Below are positions 448 to 17,221 of a DNA stretch of 24,717 bases, piece after piece. Every line of letters starts with the position of its first letter. Positions within the stretch are counted from its first letter, which is position 1. Position numbers and translations under genes: made by a program. Under the pieces are notes generated by a model. That model was not told where the DNA came from. It searched no databases and saw nothing but the letters and a program-made list of their open reading frames with translations. The DNA lies in IMG/VR virus record IMGVR_UViG_3300042373_001177, positions 1 through 24,717 of that record. One strand, written 5' to 3'. The stretch comes from a virus.

Positions 448-1103
448 TGATTTAATTTATCCAAAACCATTTGTTTGGCTTTCTTTTCTATTTCTGGATT
501 ATAATTTAATTTAGTCAATTCTTCGTTTGCTTTTGCAATATTTTCCTCAACATTTTTCAAATCTTCTTTTAAATCAGACAATACTTTTTGTATTTGTGTA
601 GTATCATCCGTCCAGAATTCTTGACTACCATCATCATTAAAAAATTGTAACTTTTCTTCTGGATTCTTTTCCAAATATTCAATACTATCAGTAATATTTT
701 TCTTAAAATCTTTCATTTCTGAAAGCATACTATTATAGATTTTATATCTTTCATAGTCCGCATAAACACCTAATACTTTTAATTTACTATCAAATGAAAT
801 AGTACAATCATAACACTTGCCTGTTTTAGGATAAAATCTATCATCTAAATAATTGCCAAATTTCATATCTGCATTACAGATACTACATCTTTGATCAATT
901 TTTATTTGTCCGAGTTTGGATACTTTTCTTTTACTTCCATTTTTCCAAACCCATTTATTTCCTTGACCATCTTCCCATTCTTCACCTTCTTTTCTTTTAC
1001 TGTTGTTCAAGTTAGGATCATAACCAACTTGAATAAATGGGCGGTTTCCCTCAACATAATCTTTAACTATGTCGAGATTGCTTTTTCCTGTTGCTCTTTT
1101 CAT
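444..1103 (-). CDS. Zinc-ribbon and coiled-coil protein directly upstream of terL
   Basis: A 219-residue protein I do not recognise by family. Residues 1-70 are charged and rich in Lys, Asn and Gly, with a tryptophan-containing patch (EWEDGQGNKWVW). A four-cysteine cluster follows, CSIC and CYDC about 20 residues apart, spaced like a treble-clef or zinc-ribbon site. The C-terminal half (about 125-219) is Lys/Glu-rich with heptad-like hydrophobic spacing and probably forms a coiled coil. Its ATG overlaps the stop of the 990-aa gene upstream, and its stop overlaps the terL start, each as ATGA, so it is probably translated in coupling with both. Many T4-type phages have the small terminase (gp16) just before gp17. 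Position and the coiled coil fit that role, but a zinc site is not usual for gp16, so the role is only a candidate. Confidence 0.75.
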   Translation of the reverse strand: MKRATGKSNLDIVKDYVEGNRPFIQVGYDPNLNNSKRKEGEEWEDGQGNKWVWKNGSKRKVSKLGQIKIDQRCSICNADMKFGNYLDDRFYPKTGKCYDCTISFDSKLKVLGVYADYERYKIYNSMLSEMKDFKKNITDSIEYLEKNPEEKLQFFNDDGSQEFWTDDTTQIQKVLSDLKEDLKNVEENIAKANEELTKLNYNPEIEKKAKQMVLDKLNQ

Positions 1104-4072
1104 AACTTTACTTTTAATCTATCCAATTCCTTTTTGAAATCATTTAAGATTTCAGTTCTTTTGTTTTTATAACGAAAAGTATTACCTTTCACTAATTTAA
1201 TTAGTTTTTCTAAAGTGTTAATATCATTAAATGTTACATTTTTGCCAAATAAAAATTCAGCAACATCGTCCATATCAGTATAAACAGTTTTTATATTTTG
1301 TTTTTCTTGTTTACCTTTTTCATTTGTTATAACATCCGCACTTTGAAGACCTTTTTTCCAATTAAATTGATATCTCTTCATCTTATTTGGATCTTCGGTT
1401 GGTTCATAACTATGTGACATAATATTCATTAATAGAATATTTCTTAACGCAGCTTTATATTTTGATTCTGGTGCTCCGGATAAAGCCTTAATCATGAAAT
1501 TTAAATCACCAATCATCAAATCAATTTGTACATAACCATCTTCATTTGGTATTTCTGTGGATTTTACTGGATTGCCATCTTCATCTACAATAGGAACATT
1601 CAAATGCAATTGGTCCAATCCTGTATTTATTTTAAAAGCAGGTGTTGGTACATTTGATGGAGTATTTGATTCTACATGTTGTTTTAATTTTTCATAAAAT
1701 GACTTTTTATCATAATCATAATTTATACCAAGCAATTCATTCAATTGTTCTGTAGATACTGCAACATCAATATCACCCAATATTGGTTTTGATTTGTTTC
1801 CGATTATTTCATATTTTAAAGAATCAAGATTCCATATTTTCAAACCGTTTTTTACGGTAGAATCCAAATACTGTTTTGGCAATTCACTATTTGCAGCTAC
1901 TGCATTACCACCTTCCGTAATTAAAAATTCTCTCAATATATCGTTTACGATTTTGTTTCCTATATCAGCGTGTTTTTTGATTTTATCAATTGATGCTTGA
2001 GTTTCTGGTGTGGTTGCTTTCTTTTCTTTCTTTGAATATTGTTCAATCATTTTTTCGGCATATTTGTCTTTTATAGCTTTGATAAATGATGCATAATCAA
2101 ATCCTAAATCTGAAAGAATGCCATTCTTATCAAGAGTTCTTGCAAATCCTAGAACTCCTGTAGTCAAATCTTTTAATTTAACATCCTGTGGATTTACACC
2201 ACTATGTGCAGATAAATTTGGGTCAATAATAGTAATTTTTTTATTAAACAATTCAGCCAAAAAGTCTGCCAAATCTCTTAAAAATGTACGAGGACTGTTT
2301 GATATTAATTTATCTACAACATCTTTTCTTAACATTGGAGATACAATCTTACCATCCTTAAATTTAGCTCTTACACCTGTATCACCAATTCTAATATTAA
2401 GAACTTCTGCCAATGCAGAGTACATTCCTCCCATTGTAAATCCTTTTATACCTCTTTCTGGAGTAAATCTAGTAGCAAACCAATCTTTATATATTTTTGT
2501 AGTATATAATAAATCTAATTGAACCCAAGTGTCTTCTTCAATTTTAATTATAATTTGTTTACCGTCAGATCTCTTTGCACTTTCAATATCAATATAATTT
2601 TGACCACTTGTTTCAATAAATTTAATTACATTATTTATATATTCTTTTTTTGTATCGGTGACATCATCTTTTGATTCAATAGGTATAACAACCATTACAT
2701 CAATATCACCATATGTTATTTCTTTTTTGTCTTGTTGGTCTTGTTTATAATACCCAGCAGAACCTAATATTTGATAATCCTTTATTGGAGCCAACGGTAC
2801 ATTACTTAAAAACATATTCAAATCAGCTAAAAAATCCTTAAATTTTTCAGTTGCTTTTTCAATAGTATCTGGAGACAAAACTGTTTTGGAAGTTAATTCT
2901 GGTTTTAACCAACCACCTTCATCAATAGGTTGTTTATGTGCAGCTCTATTTGCTGCGCTGAATTTGGAACGAGAAACATACTTAATATCACCTTCTGGGT
3001 GAGAGAATACATAACCTTCGCCTCCTGGTTCATTGCCTATATATGATTTAATTTCAGTATCTTGATTATCGATTTGATTAATAATTTCTTCTTTGACTGA
3101 CATTATTTCTACAACTACTTTCCATAAAGATTCAAATCCGTCACGATTACTACTAACATAATCAGTAATCTTTTTCTTCATCGCTCCTGTAAGATTACTT
3201 TGATCTACCCATTGTATAAAATCATCACCAATATTCACTAATCCAGTATCAACTTTACTGTTCAAATATTTATATAAAATATCTGGAAAATTAGTCATTT
3301 TCATACTAGCCAATTTAGAAGGATTAATAAAATCATCTATATTTCTAGCATGTTTATTTATATAAAGTATAATATCTTTTAATCTTTTTTCATTTACATC
3401 TGGTGGATTATTTACAGATATAGGTGGTATTACCAATAATTGTTTACCTTGAAATATATTGTAATTTGTAATTGCAGTTTCATTTCCAAAACTATCCACT
3501 TCTCTGTGAACTACAACCGCAGCTTTGCTTTGAGCAATTTTTCGTCCCAACTCGGAATTAATATCAACTGCATAAGTTACAATATTTGGTTTGAAAACAT
3601 ATCGTCCATTTTCAATTAATGGCGTATTAAAATATAACAAATCTCCCTTAAAATAACCTCTAAATGTAGATGGAACTGCGGATTCAAATATTGAAAATGC
3701 ATTTTTCATATTTTGAACGAAAAATCTATATTCGTCTGTTTTAACACTTTTACCTCTATTCAAAAACATTTGTTCCAATTCTTCCGGTGAAGTTGGTCTA
3801 CCATTATATCCTTTAGCAACAAATCCACTTTTATCTGTCAATACGAATTTACCTTCGTCATTTCTGCCAAATACAACCGCAGGAGAACCATCCCATTTCA
3901 TTGTAACATTTTTATATCCCCCTTGTTCTAATTCAATAAAACTTTTAATGGAACGAATTGCTCCTTTTGATCCTTCCCAAAAAATTAAATCTTCGGCATG
4001 ATCTATACGAGTAGCTTCGTTTATCAATATATTAGATACCAAAAATTGTTCTAAGTTATTCAGCTTTATCAT
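1100..4072 (-). CDS. Multidomain nucleotidyltransferase: ligase-type adenylyltransferase plus two Pol-beta-type NTase domains
   Basis: A 990-residue protein with three apparent catalytic sites. Residues 1-19 form a possible capsid-targeting segment ending LINE|A. Residues about 50-375 carry covalent nucleotidyltransferase motifs: KWDG (K59-G62, motif I, where Lys would take AMP), KGDLLYF (142-148, motif III), EGYV (352-355, motif IV) and IKYVSRSK (363-370, motif V). Residues about 400-560 form a Pol-beta-type nucleotidyltransferase: GS (437-438), GDID (455-458) and a third acid in VQLDLL (D520). Residues about 735-870 form a second one: GDID (766-769) and VQIDLM (D851). No OB-fold or DNA-binding domain was recognised, so ligation is not assured; RNA or protein adenylylation is equally possible. 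The start overlaps the flavoprotein gene by 17 nt and the stop overlaps the next ATG. Motifs are seen; function and substrate are inference. Confidence 0.85.
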   Translation of the reverse strand: MIKLNNLEQFLVSNILINEATRIDHAEDLIFWEGSKGAIRSIKSFIELEQGGYKNVTMKWDGSPAVVFGRNDEGKFVLTDKSGFVAKGYNGRPTSPEELEQMFLNRGKSVKTDEYRFFVQNMKNAFSIFESAVPSTFRGYFKGDLLYFNTPLIENGRYVFKPNIVTYAVDINSELGRKIAQSKAAVVVHREVDSFGNETAITNYNIFQGKQLLVIPPISVNNPPDVNEKRLKDIILYINKHARNIDDFINPSKLASMKMTNFPDILYKYLNSKVDTGLVNIGDDFIQWVDQSNLTGAMKKKITDYVSSNRDGFESLWKVVVEIMSVKEEIINQIDNQDTEIKSYIGNEPGGEGYVFSHPEGDIKYVSRSKFSAANRAAHKQPIDEGGWLKPELTSKTVLSPDTIEKATEKFKDFLADLNMFLSNVPLAPIKDYQILGSAGYYKQDQQDKKEITYGDIDVMVVIPIESKDDVTDTKKEYINNVIKFIETSGQNYIDIESAKRSDGKQIIIKIEEDTWVQLDLLYTTKIYKDWFATRFTPERGIKGFTMGGMYSALAEVLNIRIGDTGVRAKFKDGKIVSPMLRKDVVDKLISNSPRTFLRDLADFLAELFNKKITIIDPNLSAHSGVNPQDVKLKDLTTGVLGFARTLDKNGILSDLGFDYASFIKAIKDKYAEKMIEQYSKKEKKATTPETQASIDKIKKHADIGNKIVNDILREFLITEGGNAVAANSELPKQYLDSTVKNGLKIWNLDSLKYEIIGNKSKPILGDIDVAVSTEQLNELLGINYDYDKKSFYEKLKQHVESNTPSNVPTPAFKINTGLDQLHLNVPIVDEDGNPVKSTEIPNEDGYVQIDLMIGDLNFMIKALSGAPESKYKAALRNILLMNIMSHSYEPTEDPNKMKRYQFNWKKGLQSADVITNEKGKQEKQNIKTVYTDMDDVAEFLFGKNVTFNDINTLEKLIKLVKGNTFRYKNKRTEILNDFKKELDRLKVKL

Positions 4073-4838
4073 ATGGTTTTAAAAATGTTTTATCAAATAC
4101 AGTTATCGCTTTATTATATGAACGAGTTGTTTCATCCAATGTATTATCAGTAAATTGCCAATTCCAAAATAATTCATTTGGTGTTTTGAATCCAAAAAAT
4201 TGAAGTACTTCTTTTTGTGTTTCAGTTACATCTTTACCGTTCCAATTTTGTCCAGTTGCAATGAAACCAGCATCAATATCTTTTACTATATTTTTCTCTC
4301 CCAAATTACTATGTCTATTTTCAATCCAAGTTAATCTTTCAATTAATTTTTGATAATATCCATTTGCTTGTCCCCATCTTATACTAGCAAAAAATAAAAC
4401 GGTATCACTTTCAAATAATTCTTTACTTATTTTCCATAATTCATCGTTCTTTTCATTTATACTAGCCCAACAACGATGATATCCACTCGGATTCTTTTCT
4501 TTATCTTTTAATAATGCTTTTGCAGTTCCACAATGATTGCCACCAAATTCTCTATTGCTACTTACATTACCTTCACATGGAAATATATTTAGTTTGGTAG
4601 TGTCTATAAGAGTTACCTTTTCTTTGCCTAATAAATCTTGAATTTTAGTAGCTAGTTGATTGCTTTTAGGTACATCTTCTTTGTGTTGTGACCATCTATT
4701 ACTGGTAGTCAATAATAGTACTTTATTCTTATTTCTTAAATAATCAATGGTTTTCTTATACTTTTTCGCATAAAAATCCATATCTTGTTCACTAGAAGGC
4801 ATTTGTGCTTCTAATAATAAGTCAGTTAGCTTAATCAT
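4056..4838 (-). CDS. Flavodoxin-fold NAD(P)H-dependent FMN reductase-like protein
   Basis: A 260-residue protein that resembles the NADPH-dependent FMN reductase / flavodoxin-like superfamily. Residues 39-46 (KVLLLTTS) form the first beta strand, followed by a phosphate-binding loop (S46 to N60) and helix start SNQLA. VTLIDTTKL (74-82) is the second strand. FFASIRWGQANGYYQKLIER near 150-168 matches the loop and helix that flank the flavin ring. Three cysteines (C87, C102, C122) sit where iron-sulfur flavoproteins carry a cysteine cluster, though the spacing is not canonical. The first ten residues (MIKLTDLLLE, then A) look like a T4-type capsid-targeting segment with an LxE|A cleavage site. 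The gene lies just after the terminator of the sheath gene and overlaps the 990-aa gene by 17 nt. The substrate is unknown. Fold confidence is fair; the redox role is inferred. Confidence 0.75.
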   Translation of the reverse strand: MIKLTDLLLEAQMPSSEQDMDFYAKKYKKTIDYLRNKNKVLLLTTSNRWSQHKEDVPKSNQLATKIQDLLGKEKVTLIDTTKLNIFPCEGNVSSNREFGGNHCGTAKALLKDKEKNPSGYHRCWASINEKNDELWKISKELFESDTVLFFASIRWGQANGYYQKLIERLTWIENRHSNLGEKNIVKDIDAGFIATGQNWNGKDVTETQKEVLQFFGFKTPNELFWNWQFTDNTLDETTRSYNKAITVFDKTFLKPYDKAE

Positions 4839-11327: not shown

Positions 11328-14300
11328 TTATACATAATTAACTTTAGAGAATCCATTTTCTTTCTTAATTTCAAGTCTATTGTCAACCATATCTCTCATA
11401 CTATCCAAATGACTGATAATCCATACAAAATCAAAATTTGTCTTTAAGAAAGCAAATAAAGCACCCATAGACGATAAATTATCAGCATCTGCACATCCAA
11501 ACCCTTCATCTATAGCTATAAAATTGGGTCTTGGTAAATTACTAATGTTAATTAACGCTACTCTCATAGCCAATGAACTAACAAATCTTTCCATACCACT
11601 AGCCAATTCTAGTGGCCAGCGTTTATCCTCATAATTAATATGTGTAGTTACATTTTTACCATCAGTCTGTAAGATTACCGTAAATTCAACTATCTGGTTT
11701 AATATGTTATTAACTTCCTTTTCAATTGTTGGAAGAGCCTGACTAATCAATTCATATGGAATACCATCTCTAGAGATAGCATTTGTATATAATTGATATG
11801 CTTCATATTCAACTTCAAGTACCTTTACATCTTCAATTGACTTTTGAATTGTTTTTCTTTGTTCTTCTAATCCAGAAATCTTGGTATTATAACTAATAAT
11901 GTTATTGTTCACATTCTTAATTTCAAAATCAATTGTTTTGATATTAGACTTAATTACATCAATTGTTTCTTTAATTGTCTTATTGAATTCAATCGCATCC
12001 TTGTTATTATAATATTCTTCAATCTGATTTTCAATATTAATAAGACTGTTCTGATCAGAACTAATCTTATTTGATATTTTTAAAATTTCATTATTTAATT
12101 TATTAATCTTGGATTGTGTTTCAACATGCAATTTATGCGTGTCATTATACTTTTTCCAATCATCTTTTATATAAGACAATTCATTTACTTTATTTTTAAG
12201 ATTTGTATATTCCCCAACAAGATTTTGAGCTTCAACTTTGTCCGATTCAAGTTCTTCTCTTGTTTTAATTGCATCTTTAACGAATACATTGGTTGTACAA
12301 AAAGTACAATTTGGATCATACTTATGTTCTTCCAATTTCTTTAGTTTCTGTAATTTGGATGTAACAACAATCTTTTTCTTTTCAATACCTTGTTCTTTTT
12401 GACTCAATGAACTTTCTAATTCCTTAAGTGAATCATACTTAGTTGTAATATCTTCAATATCATAATTCTTTATGATTTCATCGTATTCCTTAAATGTAGA
12501 TTCAATAGATGATAATTGATTTTTATAAGAATCTAAACTAGATGACTGTGTTGATATAGAATTACTCAATAAAACTTTCTTTGATTCAAGAGATACAATA
12601 TCAACAATGTTACCATTAACATTGATAATTTTCTTTGTTTCTTCCAAAAGTCTTTCATTTTCAGACTCTCTTTTATCTGTTAGTTTTTCTAAATTAACAT
12701 TTTCATTTCTTAGCGAACCAGAAAAGTTCTCAATGTCAGAATTTAAATTCAATAACTTTTGAGTGTAATCAGTATTCTTAAAGTTCTTCAATAATGAATT
12801 GATTTCTTTGGTTTTATCAGACGCATCATTATATAAACTATCAAATACGGTAAGTCCCATAAATTGAGCCAACAAATCTTTTCTTTCTGTTTGACCCATA
12901 TCTACAAACGAACCCACTTTATTATTTTGAATGCTCAAAACAGTTAAAATAAAGTCATCATAAGTACCAACATAATCACGAATGATGTCATTAGTACTTC
13001 TACGAGCTTCTCCATTAAGTTCAACTACTTTACCACCCTCTTCTTTCCAGAACTTAACATCTACTTTAACATTACCTTTCTTATCTGCATTACCTTTTCT
13101 TTCAATAAAGAAATCTACACTGTTAACTTCAAAGTTAAATTTGCAACGGAATGACATCTTTTGTGTATTAAGAATATGAGATGCCTTAAATGCTCTATCA
13201 CATTTATCAAAAATACAAAAAGATAAAGCAGACAATATACTTGATTTACCAGATGCGTTATTAGCAAATAGTCCAACTACATTATGCATTTTGGTAAAGT
13301 CAATGACATTTTCTTCACCGTAACTAAACATATTATCAAATTCAAACTTCTTTGGTTTCCATCTGATATTTCTTACGACGGATTCTTTTTCCAAAGTTGC
13401 ATTTAAATCCTTATTGATTTTATAAATCTTATCAAGTGTATCTTTTGAAGGATTAAAATTCTTATTGTTAAGATATTCTGTAATTAATTTATTTTGATAA
13501 TCAACATCTGATACATCACTCAAATTAAAATTAGTATTATCAATGATATTGCTAGATGATGAATTTGGTGAATCTACACGAACATAAGCCACTTCTGTGA
13601 CATCAGATTTTTCTCTGATTGTTGATAATACAGATTTAACTTCAGTCGCAACACTTTCAAAACATTTCAATCTTAATCTTGCCTTTTTAGGCATATCAGA
13701 AATGTCAGTAAGCAATTTTCCTTTGCTTATTTCAGCTGTATAAAAACCATAATCATTTGGAATTTCAAAGTGTTTGAATACTTTGGTCTTTAAATCCCAG
13801 AATACAAATCCATGTCCTTTTAGTTCTTCTCCATGGTTCTGTTGAATCAATGAACCTACATAGACAATGATTGGATCGGATTGATTTAAAACTTGATGTC
13901 TATGAATATCACCCAACAATACAATATCATGACCATCAAAAATTTCATTTGTAATGGTTCTACTTGCAACTTTATATCCTACATCAGTAATTGCATTGTT
14001 TACTGGACCATGAAATAAAGCAATTTTGTAACGAGTTTCATTTAGATAAATCTTTGGAATATCCTTGAACTTGATATACTTATCTGGTTCATCAAATACG
14101 CTATAATGATTAAATAAAATATCTCCAAGAATATAAAGACCTGAATCTTTTAGATAAAATAGATTTGTATGATTGATTGCATCAACAATAGGACTTAGAC
14201 TGTCCAATCTATTTTTATTAGCCAAAGTAGCATCATGATTACCAGCGATTAATACGGTTGGTCTTCTGTCAGCAAGATTTTGTAGAAACTCAGTAGTGAT

Positions 14301-14513
14301 CTTTACACATTCCGGTGAAAGATCGCTCTTAGAATGTAAAACATCTCCTAAAACAGCAACTACAGTTTCTGCGGGTGTCCTTTCTACTGCTTTATACAAT
14401 CTTTCAAATACTTGATTGTATTCATCGTGTCTTTTTGTAAGACGCAAATGAATATCAGCAATATGAAACACATTCTTGAACTCTTTTATATCTGATTTAA
14501 GATATTTTACCAT
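11328..14513 (-). CDS. Fused Mre11/SbcD nuclease and Rad50/SbcC ATPase
   Basis: A 1061-residue single-chain version of the Mre11-Rad50 (SbcCD; T4 gp47-gp46) DNA-end processing complex. The N-terminal 240 residues hold the metallophosphatase motifs: DIH (20-22), GD (56-57), GNHD (91-94), FHG (167-169) and GDIHRH (201-206). Residues about 250-330 fit the capping region. From about 385 the Rad50 part starts: Walker A near 415-424 (ASGKSS, K423), Q-loop near VLSIQNN, two long coiled-coil arms, the zinc hook CTFC at 736-739, an ABC signature-like ASGMERFVSS near 970, Walker B IAIDEGFG near 1000 and the switch His in WIISHLD. Walker A has Ala in place of the first Gly. The complex resects DNA ends for recombination-dependent replication. 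T4 uses two genes; the fusion is uninterrupted. It starts 1 nt after the primase stop codon. Confidence 0.93.
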   Translation of the reverse strand: MVKYLKSDIKEFKNVFHIADIHLRLTKRHDEYNQVFERLYKAVERTPAETVVAVLGDVLHSKSDLSPECVKITTEFLQNLADRRPTVLIAGNHDATLANKNRLDSLSPIVDAINHTNLFYLKDSGLYILGDILFNHYSVFDEPDKYIKFKDIPKIYLNETRYKIALFHGPVNNAITDVGYKVASRTITNEIFDGHDIVLLGDIHRHQVLNQSDPIIVYVGSLIQQNHGEELKGHGFVFWDLKTKVFKHFEIPNDYGFYTAEISKGKLLTDISDMPKKARLRLKCFESVATEVKSVLSTIREKSDVTEVAYVRVDSPNSSSSNIIDNTNFNLSDVSDVDYQNKLITEYLNNKNFNPSKDTLDKIYKINKDLNATLEKESVVRNIRWKPKKFEFDNMFSYGEENVIDFTKMHNVVGLFANNASGKSSILSALSFCIFDKCDRAFKASHILNTQKMSFRCKFNFEVNSVDFFIERKGNADKKGNVKVDVKFWKEEGGKVVELNGEARRSTNDIIRDYVGTYDDFILTVLSIQNNKVGSFVDMGQTERKDLLAQFMGLTVFDSLYNDASDKTKEINSLLKNFKNTDYTQKLLNLNSDIENFSGSLRNENVNLEKLTDKRESENERLLEETKKIINVNGNIVDIVSLESKKVLLSNSISTQSSSLDSYKNQLSSIESTFKEYDEIIKNYDIEDITTKYDSLKELESSLSQKEQGIEKKKIVVTSKLQKLKKLEEHKYDPNCTFCTTNVFVKDAIKTREELESDKVEAQNLVGEYTNLKNKVNELSYIKDDWKKYNDTHKLHVETQSKINKLNNEILKISNKISSDQNSLINIENQIEEYYNNKDAIEFNKTIKETIDVIKSNIKTIDFEIKNVNNNIISYNTKISGLEEQRKTIQKSIEDVKVLEVEYEAYQLYTNAISRDGIPYELISQALPTIEKEVNNILNQIVEFTVILQTDGKNVTTHINYEDKRWPLELASGMERFVSSLAMRVALINISNLPRPNFIAIDEGFGCADADNLSSMGALFAFLKTNFDFVWIISHLDSMRDMVDNRLEIKKENGFSKVNYV

Positions 14514-16672: not shown

Positions 16673-16924
16673 TCAACCTTTTTTATTAGGTGCGTAATTT
16701 TTATTAGTAAAATTTTCTATGTACTTAGATTTACCTTTTTTAATTCCTGCAATTCCAATACCTGGTGGTATTCCACCGAAGCCTGGTGGAGTCCAATCTT
16801 TTTCTAATTTTCCAAAAATATCAGGAGTAGGTTTTTTAGCATCAAATGCGCCACCAACTTTTTGAGTATTATATCTTTCTACTAAACCTTTAGTTAAAGA
16901 TTCTCTATTAATTGGTGCTGGCAT
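16673..16924 (-). CDS. Small paralogous protein, second of a tandem pair
   Basis: An 83-residue protein of unknown function. Its first 31 residues closely follow those of the 97-aa protein encoded just upstream: MPxPxNRESLxKGL, then ERYxTQ, then GGAFxAK. After that the two differ: this one has a Pro/Gly-rich stretch (PPGFGGIPPGIGIAGI) and a basic end. No signal peptide or membrane helix is seen. It sits 3 nt after its paralogue and 12 nt before the resolvase gene, and may be a minor virion or assembly protein. The ATG at 16924 is supported by the aligned N-termini. Confidence 0.72.
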   Translation of the reverse strand: MPAPINRESLTKGLVERYNTQKVGGAFDAKKPTPDIFGKLEKDWTPPGFGGIPPGIGIAGIKKGKSKYIENFTNKNYAPNKKG

Positions 16925-16925
16925 A
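16838..16925 (-). repeat. Direct repeat copy 2 (88 bp, 5' end of the 83-aa gene)
   Basis: It aligns without gaps to 17135-17222, offset by exactly 297 bp. The best-conserved part is the 5' coding end (for example TTAAAGATTCTCTATT on the plus strand in both). It marks a gene duplication covering the N-terminal 29 codons and one base before the ATG. Confidence 0.8.
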
Positions 16926-16927
16926 AC

Positions 16928-17221
16928 TTATTTATATTTTCTTGTATCAAGTCCTTTAACATAACTTGATAATTCTTTAGATGTACTATTTCTTCTATCT
17001 GGAACATCTGCTAAATTTGACAATCCAATTGGTTGTTTTACTCTAAAACCGCCTTTATCAATAGTAAATTGTTGACCTTTTGCAGAAGGATTTGGACCAG
17101 TTGTTATAGAATCTGGTTTGGTATTAATGTCCTTAGCATTAAATGCACCTCCTGAACTTTGAGTTTTATATCTTTCTTCTAGACCCTTGTTTAAAGATTC
17201 TCTATTTACTGGTGTTGGCAT
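16928..17221 (-). CDS. Small paralogous protein, first of a tandem pair
   Basis: A 97-residue protein of unknown function whose N-terminal 31 residues match the following 83-aa protein (NRESLxKGLxERY, GGAFxAK). The rest is hydrophilic, with Gly/Ser/Thr-rich and basic segments (DRRNSTSKELSSYVKGL near the end). No catalytic motif, signal peptide or membrane segment was seen. It follows the propeller/dockerin protein gene after a 28-nt A/T-rich gap. Tandem duplication with diverged C-termini suggests a shared docking N-terminus and different partners, which is inference. Confidence 0.72.
   Translation of the reverse strand: MPTPVNRESLNKGLEERYKTQSSGGAFNAKDINTKPDSITTGPNPSAKGQQFTIDKGGFRVKQPIGLSNLADVPDRRNSTSKELSSYVKGLDTRKYK
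16929..16936 (-). promoter_or_regulatory. T4-late-like octamer before the 83-aa gene
   Basis: The coding strand reads TATAAATA, 4 nt before the ATG at 16924 and overlapping the end of the 97-aa gene. It is too close to the start for an ordinary promoter with a leader, so it may be a chance match created by the 97-aa gene's C-terminal codons. Confidence 0.15.

Follow-up and report, generated by a model that had tools for sequence, protein, structure and literature searches.

A 990-amino-acid (aa) open reading frame (ORF) of a tailed phage carries, behind a predicted N-terminal leader resembling the capsid-targeting leaders of T4, a ligase-like domain of the family DUF6267 and two polymerase-beta (Pol-beta)-type nucleotidyltransferase (NTase) domains, here called NTase1 and NTase2. 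The ORF occupies 1100..4072 of IMG/VR record IMGVR_UViG_3300042373_001177, a stretch of 24,717 nucleotides that we refer to as the window, and is read from 4072 down to 1103, followed by a stop codon; it and all of its features given below lie on the minus strand. We lean, by slightly more than an even chance, towards reading it as a head-packaged precursor that is cut into three enzymes repairing nucleic-acid ends early in infection. The precursor would be packaged into the phage head during assembly, where a gp21-type prohead protease, cutting after L/I-x-E, would first remove a 19-aa capsid-targeting leader and then free a DUF6267 RNA-ligase-type enzyme, an NTase resembling the OAS/TENT enzymes and an NTase resembling the family X DNA polymerases (PolX). 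These three would enter the host with the phage DNA and act immediately on broken nucleic acid, with the Pol-beta enzymes adding back or filling in missing nucleotides and the ligase-type enzyme sealing the ends or gaps. The likeliest substrate would be RNA, such as tRNA cut by host defence nucleases, followed by nicked or gapped phage DNA. The kinds of domain (the first and third better than the second), their conservation and partnership, the leader, the sites at the joints and the protease in relatives were computed; we infer cleavage in this phage, DUF6267 packaging, injection, substrate and order of action.

In the viral collection, 44 loci encode all or part of the ORF at 86-100% identity, which shows that it is not a one-off assembly error. 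A first-pass annotation had described it as one protein with three nucleotidyl-transfer sites, and the motifs on which that description was built are where it placed them: KWDG at aa 59-62, EGYV at 352-355, IKYVSRSK at 363-370, GDID at both 455-458 and 766-769, D520 within VQLDL and D851 within VQIDL. The three sites are thus present in one protein, but they probably do not work together as one, because the same domains are found elsewhere as separate genes or fused in another order, and because prohead-protease-type sites lie at each joint. The leader, and hence the link to the virion, had been overlooked.

The first domain (aa 20-385; 2918..4015) is a predicted covalent nucleotidyltransferase of RNA-ligase-like type, as judged from Pfam, an AlphaFold2 model and the structural aligner VIA-align. 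While its earlier description as a ligase-type enzyme stands, it was incomplete, as the domain belongs to the known Pfam family DUF6267 (PF19782), which covers aa 22-378 with 112.1 bits at a cut-off of 27; PHROG 455 matches the protein with 74.9 bits. DUF6267 is the sole Pfam match of the 990-aa protein above cut-off. RNA_ligase (PF09414) is not among its Pfam matches, and weak profile matches to TreZ, Tox-HNH and integrase fell far under cut-off and were rejected. With the member from Methylophilales phage Melnitz as tblastn query, DUF6267 turned up in 410 of the 50,697 phage records, chiefly from cyanophages and including many near-identical isolates. An alignment of 83 members, 19-85% identical to the window protein, shows K59, D61, G62, P64, D144, H189, E352, G353, K364, R368 and F371 to be invariant, with V355 kept in 82. 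The order KxDG, EG-V, K of the covalent nucleotidyltransferase superfamily is found throughout this alignment: motif I is KWDG (3887..3898; K, D and G in 83/83), with K59 as the predicted nucleotidyl-lysine, and motif IV is EGYV (3008..3019; E and G in 83/83). From the pair K364/K370 proposed earlier only K364 survives; it is likely the motif V lysine, since position 370 is not conserved and is E in 42 of the 83 sequences. D144 and H189 had been absent from the earlier list of motifs.

Motif I also bears on the kind of ligase. It reads KxDG[AS]P in all 83 members and is as such of the RNA-ligase type, with A or S after KxDG and without an R two places on, judged against a reference of four RNA ligases (three with KxDG[AS], one with KxHGS) and 14 presumed DNA ligases, so classed by us, all of which have KxDGxR. 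On this missing arginine, DNA-ligase membership was ranked below the RNA-ligase type. Searches of PDB sequences gave no match for the 990-aa protein at E up to 1 (phmmer), and four for DUF6267, of which the best, ribosomal protein eS8 at E 0.003, covers a lysine-rich helical stretch running into motif IV and was taken as compositional.

The AlphaFold2 model of the DUF6267 region has a mean predicted local distance difference test score (pLDDT) of 91.5, with residues 1-19 and 384-386 below 50. Foldseek against the PDB gave no E under 0.001; ligases hold ranks 1-6 and unrelated folds come next. Against viral models 17 matches reached E 0.001 or better, most of them phage proteins that are uncharacterised or resemble cytidyltransferases, and RNA ligases follow in that list at E 0.005-0.011. 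When VIA-align was run on Foldseek's candidates, 47 of the 50 PDB entries listed carried the title of a ligase for RNA, tRNA or DNA, or of a ligase domain; the remaining three are non-homologous end-joining complexes aligned over the residues that the DNA ligase IV rows cover. The highest Z, 7.6, belongs to Naegleria RNA ligase and the lowest is 5.7, where rows within 1 Z unit count as tied. It is this uniform list, together with the motifs, that leads us to accept, with moderate support, that the domain has the adenylation-domain fold of ligases, as the first-pass annotation had supposed.

A link to RNA ligases is also suggested by ligase-like genes found near NTase2 in the jumbo phages Atu_ph07 (Agrobacterium) and Phosso (Sinorhizobium) and in the Pseudomonas phage PA5oct (EST35_0228). 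An alignment of these three ligases matches DUF6267 at E 2.1e-5 over 255 columns (reversed null 0.43), with motifs I, IV and V in register and the motif III acids one column apart, and matches RNA ligases at E 8.6e-5 over 93 columns around motif I (reversed null 0.52). Against the DNA-ligase set it gave no match (E 0.095).

NTase2, the last domain (aa 721-990; 1103..1912), is predicted by VIA-align and hhalign to have a PolX-like palm and thumb. Its GDID (1766..1777) and third Asp, D851 (1520-1522), supply the acids D767, D769 and D851, which are kept in 21 of 21 aligned NTase2 sequences; GDxD, third Asp and palm fold are those of the Pol-beta superfamily. VIA-align places model residues of about 341-570 (protein 726-955) on the palm and thumb of Pol lambda/PolX at Z 8.0-8.7, with 151-173 aligned residues. 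Furthermore, an alignment of 53 NTase2 members matches a PolX profile built from 10 bacterial genomes at hhalign E 5.3e-5 and a probability of 67% (reversed null 0.51), which suggests kinship to PolX, not membership. There is no Pfam PolX match for NTase2 and no Pol-beta Pfam model above cut-off, and its profile found no PDB sequence at E up to 10. We discounted the Foldseek result for the aa 386-990 model, in which DNA polymerase beta fills 50 of 50 rows listed (28 matches at E up to 0.001), as the root-mean-square deviations are 14-21 Å; one VIA-align row for the same model, a designed protein matched over a helix pair, was likewise set aside.

The middle domain, NTase1 (aa 386-720; 1913..2917), was modelled together with NTase2 in that single model and appears in VIA-align as an OAS/TENT-like Pol-beta fold with a helical part: OAS1/2/3 and GLD-2 match at Z 8.1-8.7, mostly over model residues 6-146 (protein 391-531). 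It has hGS..GDxD, with GDID at 2699..2710, and a third Asp, D520, at 2513-2515, but its model is weak and it has no distant homologs. Its relatives are all close; the alignment search returned the window clade only, and at 85-100% identity their conservation says little. Neither tblastn in phages (no match) nor PDB sequences (one spike-protein match at E 3) yielded a relative, no Pol-beta Pfam model is above cut-off (NTP_transf_7 at E 0.14), and a profile match to PolX at E 0.024 spans only 9 columns and was rejected. The resemblance to OAS/TENT enzymes is the least secure of the three domain calls. The earlier proposal of two Pol-beta-type domains agrees with VIA-align, though on a moderate model. 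An identity of either domain with RlaP (PF10127) was considered and dropped, as neither shows profile similarity to it or a Pfam match, in a comparison of such low power that the PolX control also fails.

Marine relatives encode a homolog of NTase2 as a gene of its own immediately upstream of DUF6267. The 80 best-ranked loci of a scan with NTase2 alone comprise 10 from the window clade, 7 already known via DUF6267 and not counted, and 63 new ones. A DUF6267 ORF is present at 58 of these 63 non-clade loci, within -70 to +125 bp at 43, in the same ORF at 13 and farther off at 2, such that NTase2 is beside or fused to DUF6267 at 56 of the 63. Three of the five loci lacking DUF6267 have at most 217 bp downstream; none was found at L220 (1.3 kb downstream) or L226 (5.3 kb downstream). 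As the list is redundant and ordered by similarity to the window, its entries do not represent independent events. In PA5oct-like phages NTase2 was matched by tblastn at E 2, which a later profile search confirmed, with EST35_0231 as the ortholog (89.8 bits). In Atu_ph07 and Phosso the NTase2 gene overlaps a KLDGS gene that matches Pfam RNA_ligase weakly (18.7 and 13.4 bits, below the cut-off of 27). Since overlap, adjacency and fusion are all seen, a ligase-type enzyme and an NTase2-type Pol-beta enzyme are joined by different routes. In other phages a HIGH-type cytidylyltransferase follows DUF6267 or is fused to it; C-terminal fusions were observed at L108 (5293-7224) and L134 (7950-9896). 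By eye, the genes of 300-500 aa directly upstream of DUF6267 at L046-L054 resemble PD-(D/E)XK nucleases (TD/SD...hSxK), and PA5oct EST35_0229 resembles these upstream partners.

In T4, the protease gp21 cleaves after L/I-x-E, and capsid targeting needs no more than the first 10 residues of IPIII (PMC9026906). The window protein has an N-terminal leader ending in L/I-x-E, as do T4-type capsid-targeted internal proteins: the predicted propeptide spans aa 1-19 (4016..4072), has pLDDT below 50 and ends INE/A, where the slash marks the predicted cut. The strict pattern [LI]xE[AG] occurs exactly three times in the protein, at 19/20, 385/386 and 720/721, which are the end of the leader and both domain joints: site 1, INE/A (aa 17-20; 4013..4024), site 2, IDE/G (aa 383-386; 2915..2926) and site 3, ITE/G (aa 718-721; 1910..1921). 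A pLDDT below 50 is also found at aa 384-386 of site 2, at the start of the second model and around site 3. The relaxed [LI]xE occurs 10 times, the 7 additional occurrences falling within domains or elsewhere. Patterns placed sites 1, 2 and 3 in 22, 30 and 30 of 32 distinct clade ORFs, and L/I-x-E is kept in every one of these, always as ITE at site 3; position P3 is either I or L at site 1, site 2 has a single change in its middle residue, and across the three sites the residue following the predicted cut differs three times.

Site 3 corresponds to the N-terminus of the separate NTase2 genes. A GG/SG pattern was placed in 72 of 78 distinct non-clade NTase2 ORFs, with [LIVMF]xE before it in 71; the single exception starts M-GG, like the NTase2 of Atu_ph07 and Phosso, and that of PA5oct starts M-SG. 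From the 13 fused NTase2-DUF6267 ORFs outside the clade 5 distinct joints were placed, and all 5 carry a candidate site. Leaders such as MTSFKDFLSE/D, MITFQTFIAE/A and MRFTEFLTE/Q are also found on DUF6267 proteins. The core could be located in 220 of 243 DUF6267 ORFs, which dereplication reduced to 120; counting as a leader more than 8 aa before the core, [LIVM]xE[AGSDNQKE] lies within 16 aa of the core in 91 of 108 leader-bearing proteins, where 6.0 would be expected from windows elsewhere in the same proteins. Moreover, many leaderless DUF6267 proteins start M-AKNTHLEH, which matches the predicted cut of leader forms such as L156 (E/AKNTHLEH).

A protease of the required type is encoded by relatives. 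An S77 (gp21-type) protease was found in 5 of 9 clade contigs searched, and in the 69-kb contig of a close relative (G001) the gene and the prohead protease are about 6 kb apart, separated by portal and terminase. At a distance of 11-12 kb from the gene, the major head protein carries LNE/AT at residues 58-60, a site of the same type as INE/A. Of the 59 ORFs listed for G001, five match an N-terminal leader pattern: the protease itself, the homologs of the 990-aa protein and of its 260-aa neighbour, a protein of 144 aa and one that looks like a scaffold.

Several partners or orthologs of these enzymes are reported from virions. The sequence record of the PA5oct NTase2 ortholog, EST35_0231, labels it a 'structural protein' with a note of electrospray-ionization tandem mass spectrometry. 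The complete virion table of cyanophage S-SZBM1 (30 proteins) lists cytidylyltransferase S-SZBM1_140 and S-SZBM1_139 (PMC9146016), the former with the leader MRFRQFIIE/A. Virions of S-CREM2 contain cytidylyltransferase gp154 and gp156 (PMC10665884, Table 3), although its authors caution that abundant cell proteins may carry over into virion samples. The leader of gp154 is MKNFSSFLTE/A, and the gene before it is annotated as a sigma factor, not DUF6267; gp156 (L300, 5013-5726), annotated as 'hypothetical', is a Pol-beta NTase by Pfam (21.4 bits at a cut-off of 21). An NMNAT-like protein is reported from S-SCSM1 virions (PMC9602691). Counting from gp18, the NTase2 gene of Atu_ph07 is gp65 and its ligase gene gp66; both fall inside the cluster of coding sequences 31-76, from which 29 proteins in all were found in virions (PMC6102473).

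Several observations weigh against a packaged and processed set of RNA-ligase-type enzymes. We found no virion data for the window phage or for any DUF6267 protein, and the leaderless DUF6267 protein S-SZBM1_141 is in none of the 30 rows of the virion table (PMC9146016). With regard to the fold, all VIA-align scores for DUF6267 (5.7-7.6) are below 8 and hence moderate. A Z below 8 can reflect a common structural arrangement. Direct profile comparison of DUF6267 with RNA and DNA ligases from bacteria was not significant (best E 0.035), and the bridge to RNA ligases is partial and depends on PA5oct: EST35_0228 alone matches DUF6267 at E 2.5e-4, over motifs IV-V only, and RNA ligases at 0.21, whereas the Atu_ph07 and Phosso ligases without it match RNA ligases at 3.1e-4 and DUF6267 at 0.0023. 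The aa 386-990 model is only moderate (mean pLDDT 66, predicted template modelling score 0.42), and the window NTase2 has IGN where its family mostly has LGS/LGT as the hG[GS] motif. Shuffled window proteins have on average 1.2 strict sites, and 3 or more in 12% of cases; the number of sites is therefore ordinary and only their positions are telling. E720 and the two G that follow could be conserved for the fold, not for cleavage. Furthermore, 17 of the 108 leaders have no site (one of these, L093, has a misplaced core), 12 of the 120 dereplicated DUF6267 proteins have no leader, the leaders of NTase2 are about 5 aa and short for a targeting signal, and that of the window, at 19 aa, is longer than T4's 10. 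Lastly, the S77 protease was not found in the 4 other clade fragments or in 4 marine fragments.

Could the protein then simply be an intracellular enzyme of phage nucleic-acid metabolism, one that stays whole and whose N-terminal motif is no capsid signal? Several cyanophage DUF6267 genes are leaderless and lie downstream of primase-helicase genes, which would fit, as would the absence of DUF6267 from the complete S-SZBM1 table; yet the leader statistics, the cut sites at the joints, the protease and head genes near the gene in G001 and the partners or orthologs detected in virions speak against it, and we consider this explanation unlikely. Packaging and processing could also serve another target, as in a PolX-like polymerase and a ligase that mend nicks and gaps in the incoming genome, comparable to the base-excision-repair enzymes that some large eukaryotic viruses package. 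The palm and thumb of NTase2 match Pol lambda/PolX at Z 8.0-8.7, its profile matches PolX at E 5.3e-5, and DNA ligases make up a large share of the DUF6267 structural list. Against this, motif I is without the R that all 14 presumed DNA ligases carry in KxDGxR, the partners in jumbo phages match RNA and not DNA ligases, the top of the structural list is held by RNA ligases (Z 7.6, counting rows less than 1 Z unit apart as tied), and no OB-fold domain was identified. We give such a DNA target only a minor chance. We prefer RNA-end repair on the strength of motif I, of the jumbo-phage partners that resemble RNA ligases and of the OAS/TENT-like middle domain, with DNA gap repair as second choice because the third domain is PolX-like.

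Less probable again is that the packaged and injected NTases transfer nucleoside monophosphates (NMP) to host proteins, or that nucleotide signals are what they make or destroy. A parallel would be T4 Alt, which modifies host RNA polymerase. NTase1 matches the OAS enzymes, makers of oligoadenylate; for polyvalent proteins, mostly of conjugative elements, Pol-beta NTases are proposed to transfer NMP to proteins (PMC5512222). The recurrent pairing of NTase2 with ligase-type genes, including RNA_ligase-like ones, points instead to nucleic-acid ends. Returning to the head-packaged repair precursor, its fullest form would be a polyprotein with which the phage loads a whole end-repair pathway (an RNA-ligase-type sealer, an OAS/TENT-like end-adder and a PolX-like filler) into the capsid. 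The head-maturation protease would free the enzymes there, and repair of RNA or DNA damaged by host defence could begin within the first minute of infection. This form is a tentative one, which we hold to be possible rather than probable.

Effectors packaged in the head, leaders for capsid targeting and injected proteins with several enzymes are known already; as far as our literature searches go, a precursor that joins three NTases and has prohead-protease-type sites between them is new. None of the papers searched mentions DUF6267, and among those listed for virion-packaged RNA ligase/NTase combinations, for packaged base-excision repair with PolX and for capsid targeting in phages, nothing on this system appears. 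The first-pass annotation knew of no described system with such a combination, a claim that needs qualifying, for a Pol-beta NTase (RlaP) working with an RNA ligase is described, and is an established idea for phage RNA repair (PMC7824862). The theme is thus shared. Compared to the examined members of DUF6267/PHROG 455, which are mostly about 380-430 aa and stand alone, the window protein, whose aa 22-378 are a member, adds two NTase domains. ATP-dependent RNA ligases (PF09414; Naegleria Rnl, Trl1, TbREL1) resemble DUF6267 in fold and in the KxDG[AS], EG-V and K motifs, whereas in DUF6267 D144 is at or adjoining the place of the motif III acid and there is an extra helical part; no C-terminal ligase domain was identified in the window protein, nor is there a significant direct sequence match. 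NTase2 shares palm and thumb with family X DNA polymerases, but compared to bacterial PolX it lacks the arginines after GS, and no 8-kDa or PHP part was seen.

T4 internal proteins and Alt have the same kind of leader and L/I-x-E site, and relatives' contigs carry the protease gene, yet the window's enzymes are unrelated to theirs and would be three in one precursor with internal sites. The polyvalent proteins (Iyer et al. 2017, PMC5512222) likewise combine several effector domains, thought to be packaged and then split, by a built-in metallopeptidase and not, as would be the case here, by the prohead protease; no polyvalent-protein domain is among the Pfam matches of the window protein, in which no family-by-family search for such markers was made. 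The virion-borne cytidylyltransferase/NMNAT-like proteins of cyanophages are neighbours of DUF6267 in several phages and often bear leaders, but they are HIGH-type enzymes, of which the window has none.

If correct, this gives DUF6267, a family without assigned function in hundreds of phage records, a testable RNA-ligase-type role, and the leader-bearing members link the family to virion proteins already detected by mass spectrometry. It also suggests that some phages import ready-made nucleic-acid repair instead of awaiting expression, and a prohead protease splitting a multi-enzyme precursor would, if true, be a simple way of loading several effectors in a fixed ratio.

The window itself is a piece of a freshwater tailed phage with terminase, primase and RuvC-like resolvase genes (PHROG) and, by eye, sheath-like and SbcCD-like ORFs. 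The 990-aa ORF is flanked by a 260-aa and a 219-aa gene; terminase lies beyond the latter, and the window ends inside it. The 260-aa neighbour (4056..4838, minus strand), which overlaps the start of the ORF, has the leader MIKLTDLLLE/A, kept in G001, and gave no Pfam, PHROG or phage-record match; from its leader, it may possibly be a second packaged protein, and by eye it looks like a flavodoxin or FMN reductase. The 144-aa protein of G001 (L258, 7948-8379, minus strand) lies among head genes with the leader MIKLTEIAE/A and is possibly a further packaged protein. Elsewhere in the window, a 1061-aa ORF at 11328-14513 (minus strand) appears by eye to fuse SbcD and SbcC (gp47 and gp46) in one chain, and two adjacent small ORFs at 16673-17221 (minus strand), starting MPAPINRESLTKGLVERY and MPTPVNRESLNKGLEERY, are apparent tandem paralogs.

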